DNA of 64,000 nucleotides from Candidatus Poribacteria bacterium (lineage in GTDB: Bacteria > Poribacteria > WGA-4E > WGA-3G), in NCBI GenBank assembly GCA_022821965.1, contig JAJECN010000042.1, forward strand, positions 1 through 64,000, given 5' to 3'. Below are positions 15,378 to 24,799 of this stretch, piece by piece (the first letter of the stretch is position 1; every line of letters starts with the position of its first letter). The notes under the pieces are model-generated. The model searched no databases. It worked only from the letters and a program-made list of their open reading frames with translations, and was not told the DNA's origin. The position numbers and the translations under genes are program-made.

Positions 15378-15420
15378 GAAGTTTGCTCCTTCTTTAATTC
15401 TTGTGTGTCTGTTCTTTCAT

Positions 15421-15542
15421 AGGACTTACGCATGCTGCTCTTTTGTAGCATAAACTTTTAGTTTGTGACACCAGAACGCTGTGTTTTCCCAAAAATCGCA
15501 TCTAACAGAACCAGAAACTACAGTCAAAATTGCGTAAGTCCT
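15421..15542. mobile_element. MITE with AGGACTTACGCA ends
   Basis: The 12-base ends AGGACTTACGCA (15421-15432) and TGCGTAAGTCCT (15531-15542) are perfect inverted repeats bounding 122 bases with no coding frame. A hairpin unit TGTAGCATAAACTTTTAGTTTGTG is at 15444-15467; the same unit occurs at 24552-24575. No clear target duplication is seen. The element ends 7 bases from the stop of the giant TPR gene. Confidence 0.7.
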
Positions 15543-15549
15543 GTTTCAG

Positions 15550-18500
15550 TTAATTCTCCTCCGACCCACTGAGTTTTAAATCTGTAAAAGGTTCTCCATC
15601 CATGTCAGTAAGCCTTAAATAGAATCCCAAACCGTACATGTTCTCACAACAAACTTTGACGAGAATACTGTTTTCACCTGCCTTGAGCGTTATCGGAATG
15701 GTATCCTGATCCATCGCGAGGTTATGAGAGTCGCTATGGGTGAAGACCTCTTCGCCGTTTACCCAAAGTTTCGCCTGAACACCACTGCCAAAATGGAGCT
15801 GGGCTTTCCGCTCGTCGGGTGAGTTCATAATTGTCCAAGCGTAAGCAGTACTCCAATTGACATTCTTGTCGAAGATTTCTCGCAAATCAACGAACCCGTC
15901 GAAAACATCATCCGCCTGCTTCTTCCAACTTACCTGCTCATCTACCCCATCATATTCCACTGTTGTGTCAAACTGCGTCTCGGTCTCCGGGATATAAACC
16001 TTATTATACCCGATTCCGTCCGCGTTGTCAAACGTACCAATGATCCACCACGCATTCTCAGGGATGAAGGCAGTTTTATCCATATACGCTTTTGCCTTTT
16101 CAGGGAGATCACGTTCATGATAGAATTGCGCCAGTGTCACATCGGCATATAATTTAGTTGTCGGATTACTGGAACGGAGATTTACCAGTTCATTCACCAT
16201 TTCAACGTAACGCTCTTCGTCCTTGGCATTTTTACCTGCTTGAGCAACGCGTGCCCAAAAACTTCTTCCCATATTTGAGTAGCTCTGACTCATGCTGCTC
16301 ATACCGCGTTTGAACTGTTGCAGTGCTTCCTCATACCGGTCATTCGTGACATAAGCATCCGCCAACGTTAAGGCGAAATCCCAACCACTCCGCATTTGCG
16401 AGGCGCGCTCAGCGATTTCCAACGCCACCTCCGGCATGATGCCCTTTTTCAGAAGCTGATCAGCGAGATAACGATAGTCCCACTCGCGTTGCGTCCGATT
16501 CACCTCTTTCTGTCGAATCGCCAGCCATTCGGCGTATACAGCGTCCGCTTTTTCCACATCCTCTGCTTCTTTATAGGCATCCCCTAACAGTTCAAGTAGT
16601 GTAGCATTTGTGCGTCCCTTTTCGTCAAAAACTATCTTCAATTCTTCAAGGACAGCGATGCCCTTGTCTTTTTGCTCCGCGTCAGCGTAAAACTCCCAGA
16701 TGCTCCGGAGGGCACCACTATATTCGTGATCCTCAAGGGAAATATCTAAGGCGCGACGGTATACCGCCTCTGCCTCGGATAACCGATCCGCTTTCACGTG
16801 CGTTTGTGCCAACGCCCTATAGAATTGATATGAACTCGGTTCAAGTTCAATCGCTTTTTCATAAGCAGCCCCCGCCTTCGCTAAGCGCGCTGCTTCGTCT
16901 GCCTGAGGCGATTTTTGAGTGAGGTCGCCGATTTTTTTCTGCCATTCAGCGTTGTCAGGTTGAAGTTCGGCAACCTTCTCGTATTGCGCAATTGCTTCGT
17001 CAACTTTACCGCTCCACTCATAAGTTTGCGCGAGCTCGAAGTGGGCATCCGGATCGTCGGGATTGTTTTCAACCCGCTGCAACTGTTCGGGAATTTGCTT
17101 TTCATAAAGGTTCCCTTCCCTATGCACTCGGCGCAAGGCTGCTTCTGCCCGATCCCGCGCATAATTGTGTCTGGAGAGGTTTACCATTTGCTGATACGCA
17201 TTGGCAGCTTCCTCGTACTGTTTCGTGCCCAAGTAACTCTTCCCAAGAATACCATATAAATCCCCGACACCGGACGAGAAACCACCGTATCTCGCACTTG
17301 CAGTGATCGCATCTTCAATGAATTTGATGGCAGCGTCATACATCTCACCTTCAAGACAGATAGATGCAAGTGCCGCGAGGAACCACATATCCCCGCTGCG
17401 GTTGTTCGCTGAAAGCGCGACTTCCCCTTGATCCATCAATTTTTTCGCCAGATCCGGTTGATCCGTTTTATAGAGAGCAGCGGCAGCATAGTAAAAACCG
17501 CGGACATTGCTGGGTTGTGCTTTACAGAGCACCTGATAGGCTTCCGCCGTCTTTTCGTGGTTGTTGTCATTCCGATAAATCTCAGCGATCATCTCAAGCA
17601 ACGCCGGATTATCCGCATCCGCTTCAAGTTTACCCTCAAAGATGTCCTTCAACGCTTCAAGTTTCCCTTGATTTTTATAGGCATTAATCAAGGTTTCGCG
17701 TGCCTCATCTCCACCGAACATGACTTTGATACCTGACGGACCGTGGTTGATTGACATACCCATCGAGCGGGACTGAGACTGCGTTTCATAGAGTTCCATT
17801 GCCAAGTCGTTTTCACCGAGTTGCGCGTAGACTTGTAGTAACTCATTGGCGAGGTGACCTCGCTCCCAGCTTTGGGAGGTCATATCCAACGCTTTCTTGT
17901 AAGTAGTGACCGCTTTTTCCAATTCGCCAGCGTTACGGTACTCTCGTGCGCGCTCCTGTTGCATTTCAAGCGTCAGCGTGCCTGCATCCTCTGCCTGCTT
18001 TAGCATCTCCTCTAACTTACCTTGACGACGGTAGAGATCCATGAGCTGCCGCTCAATATTCTGTCGTTCCCATTCTTGACCTGTGTGTTGAATGGCATCC
18101 TCAAACGCTTTTTCAGCAGCGTCAAGGTCATCTTTACGGAGGTAGAGCCGCGCCAACTTGAGATACGCCTCTCCATCGCCAGTCCCGAGTTCAATCGCTT
18201 TTTTATAGGTGTCAATAGCCGTATCTACTTGATCGTCGGCAGCGTAGAGTTCAGCAAGCCGGACATGGTGAACACTACTTTCCGGATCCGATGCAATATA
18301 TTGCTGCGCGAGTTCAAGTGCTTCATCGGTTTTGTCGGCATCTCGGTAGGTATCAACAAGTCCGTCCTGATACTTCGTATTCTCTGGGTCAGCTTCGAGC
18401 AAAGCACTCCAGATGTCAACCGCTTTATCGTGCTTATTTTGGCGTGAATAGAGCTTTGCCAGCTGTGCCCGTGATTCAAGGTCTTCAGGCATCACCTTTG

Positions 18501-21500
18501 CAATCTGCTCATAAATATCAACAGCCTTCTTAACTTCACCGCGCTGTGCATGTTGCTGTGCCAACGTTCGCTGCATTCCGACGTTGAACTTTGGCGTTTC
18601 TTCAGGCACCCGGGTTGTCGCTGTTGATCCATCGCGTCGCCGTTTAATCTCCGCCAACTGCCGCTGTGCCTGCTCCCGAGTCCACCGTTGTGTTGAGAAA
18701 TCATTGATGATTTCGGTAAAAATCACTTCGGCATCATCGAACATTTCGTGTTGCATGTATGTGTTCGCTATCTGCTCTTTTTCGTAGAAACCTCTCCCTT
18801 GCAACAGCCGGAGGGTTCCCATCTTACGGAACGCATCCTGTGCTTTCTCCTTCTCGTCTTCGCGAGCGTACACTGTGCCGAGTTTTTGGTAACTTTCCGA
18901 GAGACCCCACGTATCCTGTGGGTTCATCTTTGCAATCGCAGTCTCAAGCAGGCGGCGTTCACGGTTTCGGTCATTTGCGGCTCGATAGGCATCCGAGAGA
19001 CTGTTCAACCATTGGGTGTTCACTGATACGGCATCATCATCAAGCAGTCGGTCAACGAATGTTTTTGACCCTTCGAGATCGCCTGCAGCAATCTTCATTG
19101 AGGCAACGAGGTAGAGCAACGCCGGGTCTTCCGGCTTCTCAGTGAGTTTCGCCTCATATTCCGTTACCAACGTCTCTATTCCACCTGATGTTTTATAAAG
19201 CTCGGTAAGTTTCTTTACAATTTCGACTTGTGCATAAGAATCTTGTGTAAGTCCCTTATCCAGAGTGTTCAGTTTCTCGCGCAAGAACTGGATGGCTTTC
19301 TCTGGATCACCAGCAGCAGCGTAAGCAGATGCTAAATCGCGATACGTATAGTACTGGTTCGGTTGGACCTCAACAACCTTTTCATAGAGTTCAATCGCCG
19401 CTTTGGCTCTGTTATTATCCATACACTCGCGTGCTACGCTTCGAGCGAAATCGTTGCCGAAATTCCTGCCAACAGACGGCACGATCATCTCTTTTGCGAG
19501 CGAAACGAGTTCATCAACCTTGCCTGCCTGGAAGAAGGTTTCCATTACTTCCCAGTATTGGTAACCGATTGCATTCGGGTTGTCTTTGAGAAGTATGATG
19601 TATTGGGTAACAGCGTCTTTCGCCTGCCCGCTTCGCTGAAGCATCTGGGCGTACCGTTGTCGCGTCATGTTGTCCTTAGGTCGCAGTGCGAGTGCTGCCT
19701 CAAACGCGTCCGATGCCTTTTTCAGTTGATTGGTACTTTCGTAGAAGGTCGCCAGTTTGACGCGCGCCTGGAACGAATCCGGGTCGTTTTGGACGGCTTC
19801 AATCAATTGAGGTTCGCGCTCCCGTATGGCTTTGGAACGCCCGACCATTTGTGATGCTTGCTGAAAATGCCATGAATACAAACTCTGACCGTACCGGTCG
19901 CGTTGGTTGGCAAAACGCAGGGCACGTTCAGCAATAAGTGCTGCGTCCTTGCCGCGCCCTAAATCCTCTAAATGGCGACCTAAATCTATCAGGAAGTTTG
20001 GATCGCGTTGTGACATTGCCAGCGTTGCTGCTTTCTTAGCGACTGCGACTGCGTACTGCGTAAGCCCACTCTGTTGGAGCTTTTTCGAGAATTGATGCAG
20101 TTCCCGAACACCGATCGGCGAATTCAGTACTTTTGTTACCAACCCACGGACAGTGACGGTGTCCCCTGTATGTGCAGCAAGTTGGAGTGTGAGGTTATAA
20201 TATTGATGGCGGTTTCTTGGGTCTGCCGCAGCAAGTCCCTCAAGTAAATCTAACACCTCCGTATGCTGTCCCGTCTGCACAAGAACGAAAACGGTGTTGA
20301 GTTTGAGCGTAAGGTCATCAGGGAGTTCCTTTTGCAAGGCTGATAGGATTTCCTCTGATTTGTCGCGCTGTCCTTCCCACCAATAGCAGTAACTCAACGC
20401 TAAACCGGGATAGATGCGTTCCCTGCCTTTCGCGACATCCAATTCAGCCTGTAATTTGGCGTACAAAACGTCCTGCTGATTTGCGATCCACAACTGACTG
20501 AAAACCTGCTGGAGATACTGCAAACGGCTCTGATCGTAGTAAGTTGTGGGCGATGGGTAACTTGATTGAAGCGGTGTGTAACCACTGTAGGAGTGAGAGG
20601 CGCGTGCGATGTTTGAGACGCGTCGGGCACTCGCCGCGTAGGGTTTGGTTCGCTCAAAGAATGTCCAGAGTAGAGCAACAGCCTTGTCTGTCTGCTCCGC
20701 ACGAACGTAAGCACTGACGAGGCTTTGATAGATACCTCTATATTGGTTCCACTGTTGCTGCATAGGTGTCGGTCGCCCCATCGTCGAGGTTTGGGGTCCT
20801 GTGGAAAGTGCTGGTACTGGAAGTTGTGCCAGAATTCTCTCTGCCGCGTCGGTCCTGTTCATCTGCGCGAGAGTACTCACCAGCATTGAACCGGTGCGGA
20901 GGTCGGTTACCTCTGCTTCCTCAAGCTCCACCGCCAGTTTTTCAGCATCTACTTTCCATCCGCGACGATAGAAATCGCCAGCGTATTGAGCGACATACCA
21001 GAGTCGTGCCTCGGATGTCAGTCCGGTTATTTCATCAAGGGACTTTTTCAAAGTTTCGTAATCAACGTCCCGCCGCATTGTGCGACTCAATCGCAGACTT
21101 TGATAGAGAGGATCGTTCGGGGATACAGCAAGCAACCGATCAATAGTCTCTTTCGTCTTGTCGGTGTTTTCTGTCAAGATATAGATCTGCACCAATGTTT
21201 CAAGATTCTGGATGTTCTTCGGATTTGCGTCAGCCTCTGCTTCAAATTGTTCAATCAGTTCAGTCAATTTCCGCTGCTGTTGTGCGATTGTTGTCAACTG
21301 CACAAGCGCGCCTGCTCGCGCCTCCTCAAAACTCTTCGGTATCCATCGCTGTCCGCTGCTGCCCCCAAAGGGCTGTCCTTGAATATCCCAGATGAGGTTT
21401 TGCGGGAGATCGAATTTGCGTATGTTGATTCCAGGGGGACCCCATGATGAACTCGCAGTGACGTTCTGCGTTGCGCTATCAGCGGGTTCAGGCATGTCCA

Positions 21501-24360
21501 GAATCCGTTGGAAGTGTGATTGTGCGCGGTCAAGCTCGTTCATCTGAACCAACGCTGCACCGAGCTGATACAGCGCAATATGGGTATCTGTCCCCGTTAT
21601 CTTTTCCGCCGCGCGGTCAAGAACAGAAATCGCTTCATCAAGCAGTCCGTGACGAATCAACAAGGTCGCGAGCCGAATCTCTGCTTCAAGCGGTTGGTTC
21701 TTGGCGTGCAGCAATTTTGTCCACGCTTGAATTGCTTCCTGTTCGCGTCCGACATCAAATAGCAACTCACCGAGTCGCTGCTGATGGATGGGATCGGGTT
21801 GTACCTTGGCGAGTCGCTGTTGATAGGTGAGCGCCTCTTGGGTGTCACCAAGGTCAAGGCTGACTTTGACGAGTTCCGCCAACAGATCCGAGTTTTCACG
21901 CTCCTGATCCAATGCCCGCGCCAGTTGGAAACGTGCGCTTGGTAAGTCTCCCTCCATCTGATAAAGTGCCGCCAACGCAACCACAGGACCTACACCAAAC
22001 GTGTTCGTTTTCGACATCTGCTTCAATTTTTCTTCCAATTCACCCCGTCGTCCGAGGTCGTAATATACCTCAGAGAGCGGTTTGACGAATGCGAGTTTAT
22101 CATTCACGCTTTCGCTTAACTCCCAGCACCGCCAGTACTGCTCAATCGCCTGTCGGGGATTCCCCGAAAGTTTATAAACCTCCGCAAGTTCAGAGCGGAT
22201 GTCGGTTGCTTCCGGTCGAAGGCGAATCGCCTGCTTGAGGCTGTCAACAGCGGTTTCATAGTTTCCAAGCTGCTTGGCGATCTGCGCGAGCATTTGATGC
22301 CCTTCAGGATTGCGCGGACTGTGCGCCACTGCTTGTTTCGCAGCGTCTGTCGCGGCATCAAAATCCATAATGACCAGATGGGCGCGTGCAATGTTTGCAT
22401 AGTATTCCCGTGCATTCGCGCTGTCAATCTCAATCAAATGTGCGTAGATGGCATCGGCTTCATCGCGCAATCCCTGTCGGGTATAGACATCCGCGAGCCA
22501 ACGGTTGATGAGTATATCATCGGGTTGGAGTGCTTTCGTCTTCAAAAGCACTTCAATTGCGTAGGTGATATTCCCCAACTTGAGGTACATCTTGGCAAGC
22601 TGCTTCTGTTGGACAAAGGCATCAGCAGGGTTAATTCCTTGCTCGTTAAGTTCCGCCTCCAATGCCTCAATTTTCCCGACAAGCGTTCCTTGCCTCCGAT
22701 AGATTTCGATCTGCTGGTCAGCCATCTGTTCAGCGAAAAATTCGTTTGGAGCGAGTTTCTCCGCTTCAGCGTATTCTACCAATGCTTCTTCGTAGTTTTT
22801 CGTCTCTGTGAGCCGCTGCGCGAGTGCTTCACGATAGCGATAGGCATCGGGCATCAACGCGACTGCTTCCCGACTTGCAGCGATGGCTTCGGTGCGAAAA
22901 TCCTTGGCATCAAGCAACTTCGCCAATCGGTCATAGTTCTCAGCAGTTGCTTTGTCATCGGCAACCAGTTGATTCCATGTCTCCACAGTCTTTTGACGGT
23001 TGCCCTGACGGAAGTAGAATTCACCGAAATACTCAATATAGTCAAGATTGTTAGATTCAAGGGAAATCGCTTTTTGGTATGCTGCGATGGCATCGTCTAT
23101 CCAGTCATTCCCAGCATAAATTTCGGCGAGGATGAGGTGTGTTCCTGCGTTATCTGGATCCCGGTCAAGCATGCGCTGATATGTTGCCCTTGCCCTGTTT
23201 TCGTCTTCCAACTGCAAGTACAACTCGCCGAGTTCACGGTAGATGCCAAAATCGTCAGGTTGCTGCTCGCTGAGGGATTCATAAGCGGCTGCCGCGTCTT
23301 CAAATTTTTCAGCACTGCGGAGGGCGGTGATTAAGTTTAATCGGATGCCAGTGTCTGTCGGGGCGAGTTCTACTGCCTTCTGATATGTAGTGATACCTTC
23401 GTCTAATTGCTGGTTCTCAATGTATGCGGCAGCGAGCAAACCGATGAGTTCCGGGTCGTTCGGTGTGTCCTCAAGTTTCTTTTCATAGTGCCCAATCAGC
23501 CCTTCCCAATTGCCATCAGCGGCGTAGATACCGATAATCCGGTGTTGAAGGTCTTTCCGTAGCCAATTGCCTGGTGCTGTTAAAGCCATCGCAGTATCGT
23601 AACTTTGAATGGCATCCTCATAATCGCCTTTTGCCTCGTGAATGTTCCCAATTTCCCGACGACTCAAGCAGATCCGATACGGATCCTCTGTTTTAAGTTG
23701 AATAATCGCTTCATGTTGCGCGATTGCCTGATCATAGAGTTCCTGCTCTCGGAAAAGATCCGCGAGTTCAATACGGGAGAAGATGTTTTCCGGATCAAGT
23801 TCAGGGATTTTTCCCCACGCCGCAATCGCTTCGTCCACCCGGTCTCGGCTGAAGTAGGCGCGCCCAAGTGCTTTATATACATCCATCAACTCTTCAGGAG
23901 ATGCCGCCTGTGTTTCTTCCGATAATTCTGCTGCCTTCGTCAATTCACCGATCGCCTCTTCATGTCGTCGCAACGTTGCGTACATCTGTCCCAATGCAAA
24001 ATGCGCGTAATAATCGTTCGGAGCAAGTTCAACAGCGCGTTGATACGCTGCGACGGTCTCAAGGTCCTTTCCGAGACGTTTGTAGATGTGTCCCAAGATG
24101 AGTTGGATGTTTGAATCGTCGGGTTTGGCTTGTGCTTCTGCTTGATAGTCGGTTACCATAGCATCTAAACCCGTACCTTCCAGATAAAACTGGTAGAGTC
24201 GATCAAACGTACTCCCCTCTTTCGGATTGCGATTGAGCATTAACTTGTAGCGTTCAATGATTTGTTCGTCTTGGGCAAAACTAATTGAGGAAAGATAAAG
24301 GGTACAGGATATAAGATACAACACACATACGACAACTGAGAATTTTTCTCGTCCAAACAT
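15550..24360 (-). CDS. Giant exported TPR protein with C-terminal jelly-roll-like domain
   Basis: 2936 residues. A signal peptide occupies about 1-30 ('VVVCVLYLISCTLYLSSISFAQDE'). Tetratricopeptide repeats then run almost without break to about residue 2780, seen as 34-residue units such as 'AVELAPNDYYAHFALGQMY' and 'AIELEPSSYQFYRALAQTH'. Two short non-TPR insertions are visible, around 980-1010 ('GPPGINIRKFDLPQNLIWD') and near 2200 ('SINHGPSGIKVMFGGDE'). The last 150 residues are beta-rich ('WTIMNSPDERKAQLHFGSG', 'KLWVNGEEVFTHSD', 'LKAGENSILVKVCC') and resemble the jelly-roll of PA14/glycosidase-accessory domains. The ATG at 24360 has AAGGAG 8 bases upstream. As first gene of the cluster it may be a periplasmic scaffold for the Bat-type membrane complex. 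That is inference. Confidence 0.9.
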   Translation of the reverse strand: MFGREKFSVVVCVLYLISCTLYLSSISFAQDEQIIERYKLMLNRNPKEGSTFDRLYQFYLEGTGLDAMVTDYQAEAQAKPDDSNIQLILGHIYKRLGKDLETVAAYQRAVELAPNDYYAHFALGQMYATLRRHEEAIGELTKAAELSEETQAASPEELMDVYKALGRAYFSRDRVDEAIAAWGKIPELDPENIFSRIELADLFREQELYDQAIAQHEAIIQLKTEDPYRICLSRREIGNIHEAKGDYEDAIQSYDTAMALTAPGNWLRKDLQHRIIGIYAADGNWEGLIGHYEKKLEDTPNDPELIGLLAAAYIENQQLDEGITTYQKAVELAPTDTGIRLNLITALRSAEKFEDAAAAYESLSEQQPDDFGIYRELGELYLQLEDENRARATYQRMLDRDPDNAGTHLILAEIYAGNDWIDDAIAAYQKAISLESNNLDYIEYFGEFYFRQGNRQKTVETWNQLVADDKATAENYDRLAKLLDAKDFRTEAIAASREAVALMPDAYRYREALAQRLTETKNYEEALVEYAEAEKLAPNEFFAEQMADQQIEIYRRQGTLVGKIEALEAELNEQGINPADAFVQQKQLAKMYLKLGNITYAIEVLLKTKALQPDDILINRWLADVYTRQGLRDEADAIYAHLIEIDSANAREYYANIARAHLVIMDFDAATDAAKQAVAHSPRNPEGHQMLAQIAKQLGNYETAVDSLKQAIRLRPEATDIRSELAEVYKLSGNPRQAIEQYWRCWELSESVNDKLAFVKPLSEVYYDLGRRGELEEKLKQMSKTNTFGVGPVVALAALYQMEGDLPSARFQLARALDQERENSDLLAELVKVSLDLGDTQEALTYQQRLAKVQPDPIHQQRLGELLFDVGREQEAIQAWTKLLHAKNQPLEAEIRLATLLIRHGLLDEAISVLDRAAEKITGTDTHIALYQLGAALVQMNELDRAQSHFQRILDMPEPADSATQNVTASSSWGPPGINIRKFDLPQNLIWDIQGQPFGGSSGQRWIPKSFEEARAGALVQLTTIAQQQRKLTELIEQFEAEADANPKNIQNLETLVQIYILTENTDKTKETIDRLLAVSPNDPLYQSLRLSRTMRRDVDYETLKKSLDEITGLTSEARLWYVAQYAGDFYRRGWKVDAEKLAVELEEAEVTDLRTGSMLVSTLAQMNRTDAAERILAQLPVPALSTGPQTSTMGRPTPMQQQWNQYRGIYQSLVSAYVRAEQTDKAVALLWTFFERTKPYAASARRVSNIARASHSYSGYTPLQSSYPSPTTYYDQSRLQYLQQVFSQLWIANQQDVLYAKLQAELDVAKGRERIYPGLALSYCYWWEGQRDKSEEILSALQKELPDDLTLKLNTVFVLVQTGQHTEVLDLLEGLAAADPRNRHQYYNLTLQLAAHTGDTVTVRGLVTKVLNSPIGVRELHQFSKKLQQSGLTQYAVAVAKKAATLAMSQRDPNFLIDLGRHLEDLGRGKDAALIAERALRFANQRDRYGQSLYSWHFQQASQMVGRSKAIREREPQLIEAVQNDPDSFQARVKLATFYESTNQLKKASDAFEAALALRPKDNMTRQRYAQMLQRSGQAKDAVTQYIILLKDNPNAIGYQYWEVMETFFQAGKVDELVSLAKEMIVPSVGRNFGNDFARSVARECMDNNRAKAAIELYEKVVEVQPNQYYTYRDLASAYAAAGDPEKAIQFLREKLNTLDKGLTQDSYAQVEIVKKLTELYKTSGGIETLVTEYEAKLTEKPEDPALLYLVASMKIAAGDLEGSKTFVDRLLDDDAVSVNTQWLNSLSDAYRAANDRNRERRLLETAIAKMNPQDTWGLSESYQKLGTVYAREDEKEKAQDAFRKMGTLRLLQGRGFYEKEQIANTYMQHEMFDDAEVIFTEIINDFSTQRWTREQAQRQLAEIKRRRDGSTATTRVPEETPKFNVGMQRTLAQQHAQRGEVKKAVDIYEQIAKVMPEDLESRAQLAKLYSRQNKHDKAVDIWSALLEADPENTKYQDGLVDTYRDADKTDEALELAQQYIASDPESSVHHVRLAELYAADDQVDTAIDTYKKAIELGTGDGEAYLKLARLYLRKDDLDAAEKAFEDAIQHTGQEWERQNIERQLMDLYRRQGKLEEMLKQAEDAGTLTLEMQQERAREYRNAGELEKAVTTYKKALDMTSQSWERGHLANELLQVYAQLGENDLAMELYETQSQSRSMGMSINHGPSGIKVMFGGDEARETLINAYKNQGKLEALKDIFEGKLEADADNPALLEMIAEIYRNDNNHEKTAEAYQVLCKAQPSNVRGFYYAAAALYKTDQPDLAKKLMDQGEVALSANNRSGDMWFLAALASICLEGEMYDAAIKFIEDAITASARYGGFSSGVGDLYGILGKSYLGTKQYEEAANAYQQMVNLSRHNYARDRAEAALRRVHREGNLYEKQIPEQLQRVENNPDDPDAHFELAQTYEWSGKVDEAIAQYEKVAELQPDNAEWQKKIGDLTQKSPQADEAARLAKAGAAYEKAIELEPSSYQFYRALAQTHVKADRLSEAEAVYRRALDISLEDHEYSGALRSIWEFYADAEQKDKGIAVLEELKIVFDEKGRTNATLLELLGDAYKEAEDVEKADAVYAEWLAIRQKEVNRTQREWDYRYLADQLLKKGIMPEVALEIAERASQMRSGWDFALTLADAYVTNDRYEEALQQFKRGMSSMSQSYSNMGRSFWARVAQAGKNAKDEERYVEMVNELVNLRSSNPTTKLYADVTLAQFYHERDLPEKAKAYMDKTAFIPENAWWIIGTFDNADGIGYNKVYIPETETQFDTTVEYDGVDEQVSWKKQADDVFDGFVDLREIFDKNVNWSTAYAWTIMNSPDERKAQLHFGSGVQAKLWVNGEEVFTHSDSHNLAMDQDTIPITLKAGENSILVKVCCENMYGLGFYLRLTDMDGEPFTDLKLSGSEEN

Positions 24361-24533
24361 GGAAGGGTCTCCTTGAGTGAATAGGCAGCTTTGGAAAAGA
24401 ACTTAGAACTTTTGAGGATTTTAATCACTTGCCAAAAGCAAATTTAAATATCTGCTGTGTTACTTAATAGTGACGCACTTTAGGGGCAAAAATGGTGCAA
24501 TATTTTTGATTTCATAACGCAAGGATTTCTTAC

Positions 24534-24646
24534 ACCATTTCTGATTGAAATTGTAGCATAAACTTTTAGTTTGTGTCCCTTGTAGCATAGACTGTTAGTC
24601 TGTGCACTAAAGGGCGGTTAATGCGATATAAACTTTTAGAAATGGT
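24534..24646. repeat. Inverted-repeat region with two tandem hairpin units
   Basis: ACCATTTCT (24534-24542) is inverted at 24638-24646 (AGAAATGGT). Between them lie two 24-base hairpin units, 24552-24575 and 24581-24604, that differ at paired positions. The remainder of the 439-base gap 24361-24799 holds no gene that I can support. Confidence 0.6.
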
Positions 24647-24799
24647 ATTATCTTAAACCTTAGCAAATTGCGTGCCAGCGTGAATAATGCTATATTGGTG
24701 GGATTCTTGCCAAATGTCTGGAAAGTGCTGCACGAAAAGGTACATATTTTATACCCATCTGCACAAAATGGGGCAGACTTCACAAGGCATCAGTAGACC

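Follow-up and report, generated by a model that had tools for sequence, protein, structure and literature searches.

GTAG-tagged REPs comprise 24 families in the available text of Di Nocera et al. 2013 (PMC3733652). According to that text, their common features are a GTAG at the 5' foot, a high copy number, an intergenic location and dimers with the GTAG outside; their stems span 6-13 bp, and their loops are often 2-3 nt long. The Poribacteria units described here share the common features and fit these dimensions. The GTAG REP families are also described as having GT pairs and alternative, complementary residues in their stems (PMC3733652, in the part available). Poribacteria was not among the phyla named there for GTAG repeats, with 0 occurrences in the text at hand. 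The REPINs of Pseudomonas fluorescens are similar in that inverted REP pairs serve as the spreading unit, and the accessible part of that account reports compensatory changes in the stretch between the REPs (PMC3116915). In contrast to these REPINs, as that part presents them, head-to-tail units in Poribacteria also spread, as MITE cargo. The GTAG-15 dimers of Anabaena variabilis regularly lie inside a larger inverted-repeat sequence, as seen in the text available for PMC3733652, and these REP dimers in long palindromes are a precedent for REPs within larger elements. Compared with GTAG-15, which that text describes in palindromes only, three Poribacteria elements with unlike ends share one REP family, and the elements add target duplications and, for two of them, empty sites. 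Each layer, namely the REP, the RAYT-like partner and the MITE, is of an already known kind. In the literature searched, we found no earlier account of this REP family, of its partner clade in the phylum or of the loading of three MITEs, and no paper on Poribacteria that dealt with a transposase and a MITE.

The window (the whole stretch of 64,000 nucleotides that was analysed) contains three units on the + strand, each built of GTAG, an 8-bp stem and a 3-nt loop, with a T.G wobble as the third stem pair. REP unit 1 (24553-24575) has a TTT loop and belongs to the AAACT/AGTTT subfamily. REP unit 2 (24582-24604), which is placed head to tail with unit 1, has a GTT loop and belongs to the AGACT/AGTCT subfamily, and REP unit 3 (15445-15467) has the same sequence as unit 1. 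An earlier note on this DNA had described the tandem hairpins, an A-T pair changed to G-C on both sides of the stem and a third unit, identical to the first, within a MITE. Our reading of the letters agreed on all of these points: the hairpins are CATAAACT-TTT-AGTTTGTG at 24557-24575 and CATAGACT-GTT-AGTCTGTG at 24586-24604, unit 1 has A-T and unit 2 has G-C as the fifth pair, and the third hairpin was found at 15449-15467 inside a MITE. We also observed that the first loop base differs between the tandem units and that GTAG precedes all three units; the tag lay inside the stretches delimited by that note, which passed over it without comment. Upon folding as single-stranded DNA, units 1 and 2 gave exactly this hairpin, at -3.0 and -3.6 kcal/mol, respectively, and for either unit 4 of 200 shuffles folded as well.

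The REP pattern occurred three times in the window, compared with 0.07 expected from shuffles, and 119 units were found in the genome at up to two mismatches, compared with 4 for the reversed-pattern control. To place the tag, we used 462 kb consisting of the window and 20 stretches of the genome. Among all 256 tetranucleotides directly 5' of hairpins with an 8-bp stem and a 3-nt loop, GTAG ranked first there with 46 occurrences, the next having 9; these figures are not genome-wide rates because most of the stretches were picked around REPs or RAYT genes. ORFs of at least 200 aa cover 77.5% of these mostly REP-chosen stretches, and only 1 of 46 REPs lay inside one. Codirectional, divergent and convergent gaps held 22, 13 and 9 REPs, respectively, in line with the gap lengths of 51, 24 and 17 kb. 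Inverted REP pairs with GTAG outside were present six times in the genome stretches examined.

The family was found throughout the genus. In the first search, it was present in 13 of 13 genus genomes, with 34-143 matches each, and a looser pattern was positive in 38 of 38 genus genomes, with 10-389 matches each. In other families of the order, two of eight genomes gave one match each, which is at chance level; the reversed control of G018 also gave one match. Among named genomes, the exact pattern was present in at least 112 stretches, all but one of which were titled Candidatus or uncultured Poribacteria. A MAG labelled Bernardetiaceae has an exact copy of the pattern, with a long ORF on either side (L187:3588-3610; JAFIER010000261.1), a finding that may reflect transfer, convergence or mis-binning. 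At L176:3814-4281 (OX639973.1, 1744001-1752000), 15.8 REP units with both TTT and TCC loops follow one another head to tail at a 30-bp period, and variants whose stem is approximately 11 bp long, of the CATAGGAAACC-GTT-GGTTTCCTGTG type, were observed in MITE A and MITE C (L372, L384, L390 and L418). As judged from their sequences, the hairpins are a REP family of the GTAG superfamily: they have an unpaired GTAG at the 5' foot, a high copy number, a mostly intergenic location and subfamilies with complementary stems.

Two RAYT genes of the window's genome scored over the NCBIfam cut-off, at C57 371234-371680 and 375908-376321 (L069), approximately 4.7 kb apart. Both were rejected as partners of this family, being bordered by other GTAG repeats of the GTAGGTTGGGTT and GTAGGAGCGATCTCC types, and none of the present REPs was found in the 19.9 kb around them. 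Because each of the two genes is bordered by its own GTAG repeats, the genome holds at least three GTAG repeat families. In relatives, we found a separate RAYT-like clade that is bordered by the present REP family, with seven members of 223-246 aa. A search with the alignment of these seven members (E 1e-20) revealed 23 genes in 18 of the 38 genus genomes, and none at that threshold in the window's assembly (95% complete, 62 contigs), so that the link between REP and RAYT rests on the relatives. Counted by one rule, REPs of this family were present in 23 of 23 clade loci, in 1 of the 27 loci that belong to other RAYT groups (L239) and in 0 of 11 control windows, and in 22 of the 23 clade loci a REP lay within 250 bp of the gene or inside it, the exception being L299. 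These associations point to this divergent RAYT/TnpA-REP clade of relatives as the likely partner of the REP family.

The three clade members scanned scored 66-69 bits with NCBIfam NF047646, below its cut-off of 80, and were also under the curated cut-off of PF01797. Among solved structures, the nearest was 4er8, the TnpA-REP of E. coli, which matched over the C-terminal part with E 2.7e-5. In eight aligned proteins, six of them from the clade and two being the RAYTs of the window's genome, H129-x-H131 and Y212 were invariant, and the clade Y212 aligned with chain residue 115 of 4er8, which we take to be the catalytic tyrosine. The clade motifs were NHVH, W followed by Q or H, and Y[VI]LNNP, mostly with V. 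By these motifs, the clade could be TnpA-REP subclass 2.4 or 2.7. The motifs given for subclass 2.4, or RAYT group 4, in the available part of PMC6006769 are NH[IFV]H, WQ and YIxNNP; NHVH fits these, whereas the clade has Q or H after W and mostly V where I is published. The subclass 2.7 motifs in the same text, [ND]HVH, WQ and YI[LR][NQ]NP, fit about equally well. An inverted REP pair was observed inside a RAYT-like gene at L288:1930-1952 and 1964-1986, where the reading frame is kept open. In this one gene, the two REPs cover residues 144-162, between NHVH (128) and Y (212); in other clade loci, REPs overlap the gene ends. A REP inside the gene between HuH and Y is a feature of subclass 2.4 (PMC6006769, as far as its text was available), and the REPs within the L288 gene therefore speak for that subclass. 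The residues between the motifs number 83 in L288, compared with a median of 88 in subclass 2.4, and the canonical subclass 2.4 REPs have three G-C pairs at the stem base, which the Poribacteria REPs do not have (both comparisons with the accessible part of PMC6006769).

The loop type differed with the RAYT-like gene. TCC loops were found with a supported clade of six genes, TTT loops with three other genes, GTT loops (some GTC) with a supported group of eleven, and GTT loops plus one ATT with three loosely placed genes; 6 of the 19 inner branches of the clade tree were well supported. Since the window pair combines TTT and GTT loops, its units appear to represent two subfamilies and not the products of local mutation in a single unit. 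REP number tracked clade presence weakly: the median was 74.5 in genomes with a clade gene (n=18) and 59 in those without (n=20), a difference with p = 0.026, kinship and completeness being uncontrolled, and the highest count, 389, was in a genome without a clade gene. An approximately tenfold effect on REP number has been reported for other bacterial strains (PMC2817692, in the portion available).

The tandem pair lies in MITE A, a 115-bp element on the + strand at 24533-24647. Its left TIR (24533-24542) is CACCATTTCT, with the consensus TACCATTTCT, and its right TIR (24638-24647) is AGAAATGGTA. Flank comparison of the copies placed a TTA target-site duplication at 24530-24532 and 24648-24650. 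The genome contains 24 full copies of 114-118 bp, 23 of which have identical 3-bp flanks of the form TNA. All 24 hold the ordered unit pair, the first unit being altered in four, and MITE A accounts for approximately 40% of the REP units in this genome. In the relative G035, the inspected sequence has the flanking DNA without MITE A and with a single TTA, which is an empty site; in G044, G001 and G008, matches break at about the same points, as judged from match coordinates only. As inferred from these sequence comparisons, the tandem pair is the cargo of one MITE A insertion at a TTA target, and the inherited unit is the entire element 24533-24647, not the two hairpins alone. The TTA duplication argues against an ancestral 24533-24647 block that was precisely lost in relatives. 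MITEs with 3-bp TNA duplications are known from the IS1031 group of IS5-type elements; MITE A resembles them in its TIRs, its 3-bp TNA target duplication and its lack of coding capacity, and none of the listed ORFs of at least 100 aa overlaps it.

Some copies of MITE A had a different content. L025 and L026, two more copies in the genome, have a single unit each, and copies in other genomes contain one unit, a longer-stem unit, a palindrome within the second unit or a GTAGGTGCGGTT-type REP. The last was seen between MITE A-like ends in L386 and, interrupted, in L388 (G031:C84 and G044), and REPs of this type border another RAYT group, for example at L247, L249 and L250. In L367, L369 and L370 (G023), the second REP of MITE A is interrupted near the loop by a palindrome of approximately 25 bp, as though a hairpin had been inserted into another one.

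The stem variants were compared across the family and within the MITE A copies. Two-sided variants in the family were AAA/TTT, AGA/TCT, AGG/CCT, AAC/GTT and AAT/ATT. The pattern leaves stem pairs 2, 4, 5 and 6 free, and pairs were counted in the 150 of 838 matches listed, from which the window's own genome is absent. Among these 150 matches, pair 5 was A-T in 91, G-C in 50 and unpaired in 9, and pair 6 was A-T in 58, C-G in 40, G-C in 32, T-A in 8, another standard pair in 4 and unpaired in 8. The Watson-Crick counts of pairs 2, 5 and 6 were reached by 0 of 2000 shuffles, copying being uncontrolled in this comparison; pair 4 was almost constant among the same matches, with no excess over shuffles and no two-sided change. 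When the 40 distinct 23-mers were counted once, the four free pairs showed 33 two-sided, 6 one-sided and 25 unpaired changes, and much of the count by matches thus reflects the copying of a few subfamilies. In MITE A, the stem changes of 86 gap-free units from 62 distinct copies were unpaired in 20 cases, one-sided in 7 and two-sided in 6. A total of 48 unit positions were excluded because they had no gap-free alignment, 10 of these 48 being from five elements also read on the reverse strand, and a repeat with stricter orientation gave the same counts. Eight of the 20 unpaired changes, all of them the same A-G at pair 2 of the first unit, may have a common origin. Among the six two-sided changes, two (L025 and L389) sit in copies with a single unit, a pattern to be expected if the second unit replaced the first by deletion.

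The earlier note had taken the paired change as a sign of selection on a DNA or RNA hairpin and had called for a covariation test on all gathered copies. The hairpin itself was confirmed, and the family is rich in two-sided changes; the test, run on the 150 of 838 matches listed, gave an excess over all 2000 shuffles at pairs 2, 5 and 6. The part of the claim that concerns selection at this place was not supported, because both units arrived as one block within a MITE, as evident from the target duplication and the empty site. Unpaired changes as frequent as paired ones had been named as the outcome that would speak against it, and in the MITE A copies they were more frequent (20 compared with 6). 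This excess leaves no sign of selection after the hairpins became MITE cargo. We read the covariation as a mark of the REP source families or subfamilies, which were probably kept pairable before spreading; in our reading, the fold matters for copies spread by a RAYT and not for residents.

Among the alternatives, we considered that the hairpins are RNA elements of the neighbouring genes, such as an mRNA stabiliser, a processing site or a weak terminator, and that the covariation reflects selection on the transcript. REPs can raise mRNA stability and cause termination, according to the available part of PMC6006769. The whole of MITE A folds well as RNA, with z scores of -5.4 on the + strand and -4.35 on the - strand, and a G.U pair is possible at the third stem position on the + strand. 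However, both flanking long ORFs are on the - strand, where the single hairpins fold poorly (z -0.42 for unit 1 and -1.59 for unit 2). The stem changes in the MITE copies are mostly unpaired, and REP placement follows the lengths of the codirectional, divergent and convergent gaps, which also argues against this reading. An RNA family was rejected, as no Rfam match reached the gathering score within the window. We regard the RNA explanation as improbable, and a DNA role, as a transposase substrate, fits better than an RNA role.

The same REP family was found in two further MITEs. MITE B (15420-15543, + strand, 124 bp), which holds unit 3, has the TIRs TAGGACTTACGCA and TGCGTAAGTCCTG, unlike those of MITE A, and is flanked by the 5-bp target-site duplication TTTCA at 15415-15419 and 15544-15548, as placed by flank comparison. 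Identical 5-bp flanks were found in 8 of 11 MITE B copies having two TIRs. The REP unit lay at the same place in 13 of 13 aligned copies, a count to be read with the unit being part of the query, so that unit-free copies may be missed; three of the 13 had an AACC/GGTT stem or one near it. One 2936-aa ORF, TPR-repeat-like by eye, was observed between MITEs A and B (15550-24360, - strand). The third family, MITE C, is approximately 155 bp long, carries an inverted REP pair and has a duplication of approximately 9 bp, which was exact at 9 bp in two copies and one base offset in several more; empty sites of MITE C were found in G008 and G001. A query of the inverted pair alone (approximately positions 30-92) gave many matches of approximately 62 bp in relatives. 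The two matches inspected whole, L430 and L435, had flanks common to both, and the C6 copy of the window's genome looks similar; these inverted pairs may represent a single old copy or belong to another element. In one orthologous stretch of approximately 9 kb in four genomes, no insertion of a bare REP or inverted pair with an empty site was found. Two REP sites of L073 were compared with relatives; one is part of MITE C, and at the other the relatives have a different inserted sequence.

These placements bear on a second alternative, in which the hairpins are structural parts of the MITE, for example binding sites of its transposase, and the likeness to REPs is secondary. Such a role is consistent with the constant position of the unit in all 13 aligned MITE B copies, obtained with a query that contained it, and with the fact that each of the 24 full MITE A copies has two units, the first being altered in four. 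The same units nevertheless occur in three MITE families with differing ends and duplications (3, 5 and approximately 9 bp), they also border RAYT genes and make up the 15.8-copy array, and MITE A-like copies exist with one unit, another REP type or other palindromes. We therefore consider this alternative very improbable. A local tandem duplication followed by a compensatory change in place, which would suit the head-to-tail units 29 bp apart and has a parallel in the tandem REP array of a relative, is hardly credible given that the same ordered pair is present in 24 of 24 full MITE A copies (four with altered first units), that both subfamilies occur alone elsewhere and that loop types in relatives differ with the RAYT subgroup. 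At this locus, such a duplication is contradicted by the empty site in G035. A CRISPR was rejected by eye, there being only two hairpin units, in dispersed elements.

Taken as a whole, the comparisons make it very probable that the hairpins are REPs of the GTAG superfamily that would serve a RAYT as single-stranded DNA substrates, that they came to sit within TIR MITEs and that the window pair reflects one MITE insertion at TTA. In the mechanism that we propose, a RAYT (TnpA-REP) would act as a Y1 HUH nuclease on REP hairpins in the form of single-stranded DNA. By analogy with other TnpA-REPs, the clade protein would nick beside the folded hairpin through its conserved tyrosine, and REPs or inverted pairs would spread through such nicking; binding of the single-stranded GTAG and hairpin, nicking by the tyrosine and REP spread are all extrapolated from PMC8266576 and PMC6006769, in the parts available. 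If what the protein reads is the GTAG together with the ends and the fold, copies that are still spreading might drift in mid-stem only in pairs, and paired drift of this kind could give subfamilies such as AAACT/AGTTT and AGACT/AGTCT. REPs would also have come to sit within TIR MITEs, and a transposase presumed to act on the MITE ends would then have spread the MITEs together with their REP cargo. A wider proposal, which we offer tentatively and to which we give less than even credence, is that the REPs of this genus spread in two ways, by their own single-strand transposase and as the standard cargo of several unrelated TIR MITEs.

The findings add a REP family and a candidate partner protein for Candidatus Poribacteria, a lineage of sponge symbionts. 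They would also explain the covariation without a functional RNA, as subfamilies of a mobile hairpin that are copied by a second mobile element can mimic compensatory evolution in place. If the two-way spread is true, one MITE frame could be loaded with REPs of different RAYT families, and MITEs would serve as shuttles, bringing REPs into genomes or epochs that lack a cognate RAYT, such as the genome of the window. REP-loaded MITEs provide a natural test of whether REP spread needs a RAYT.
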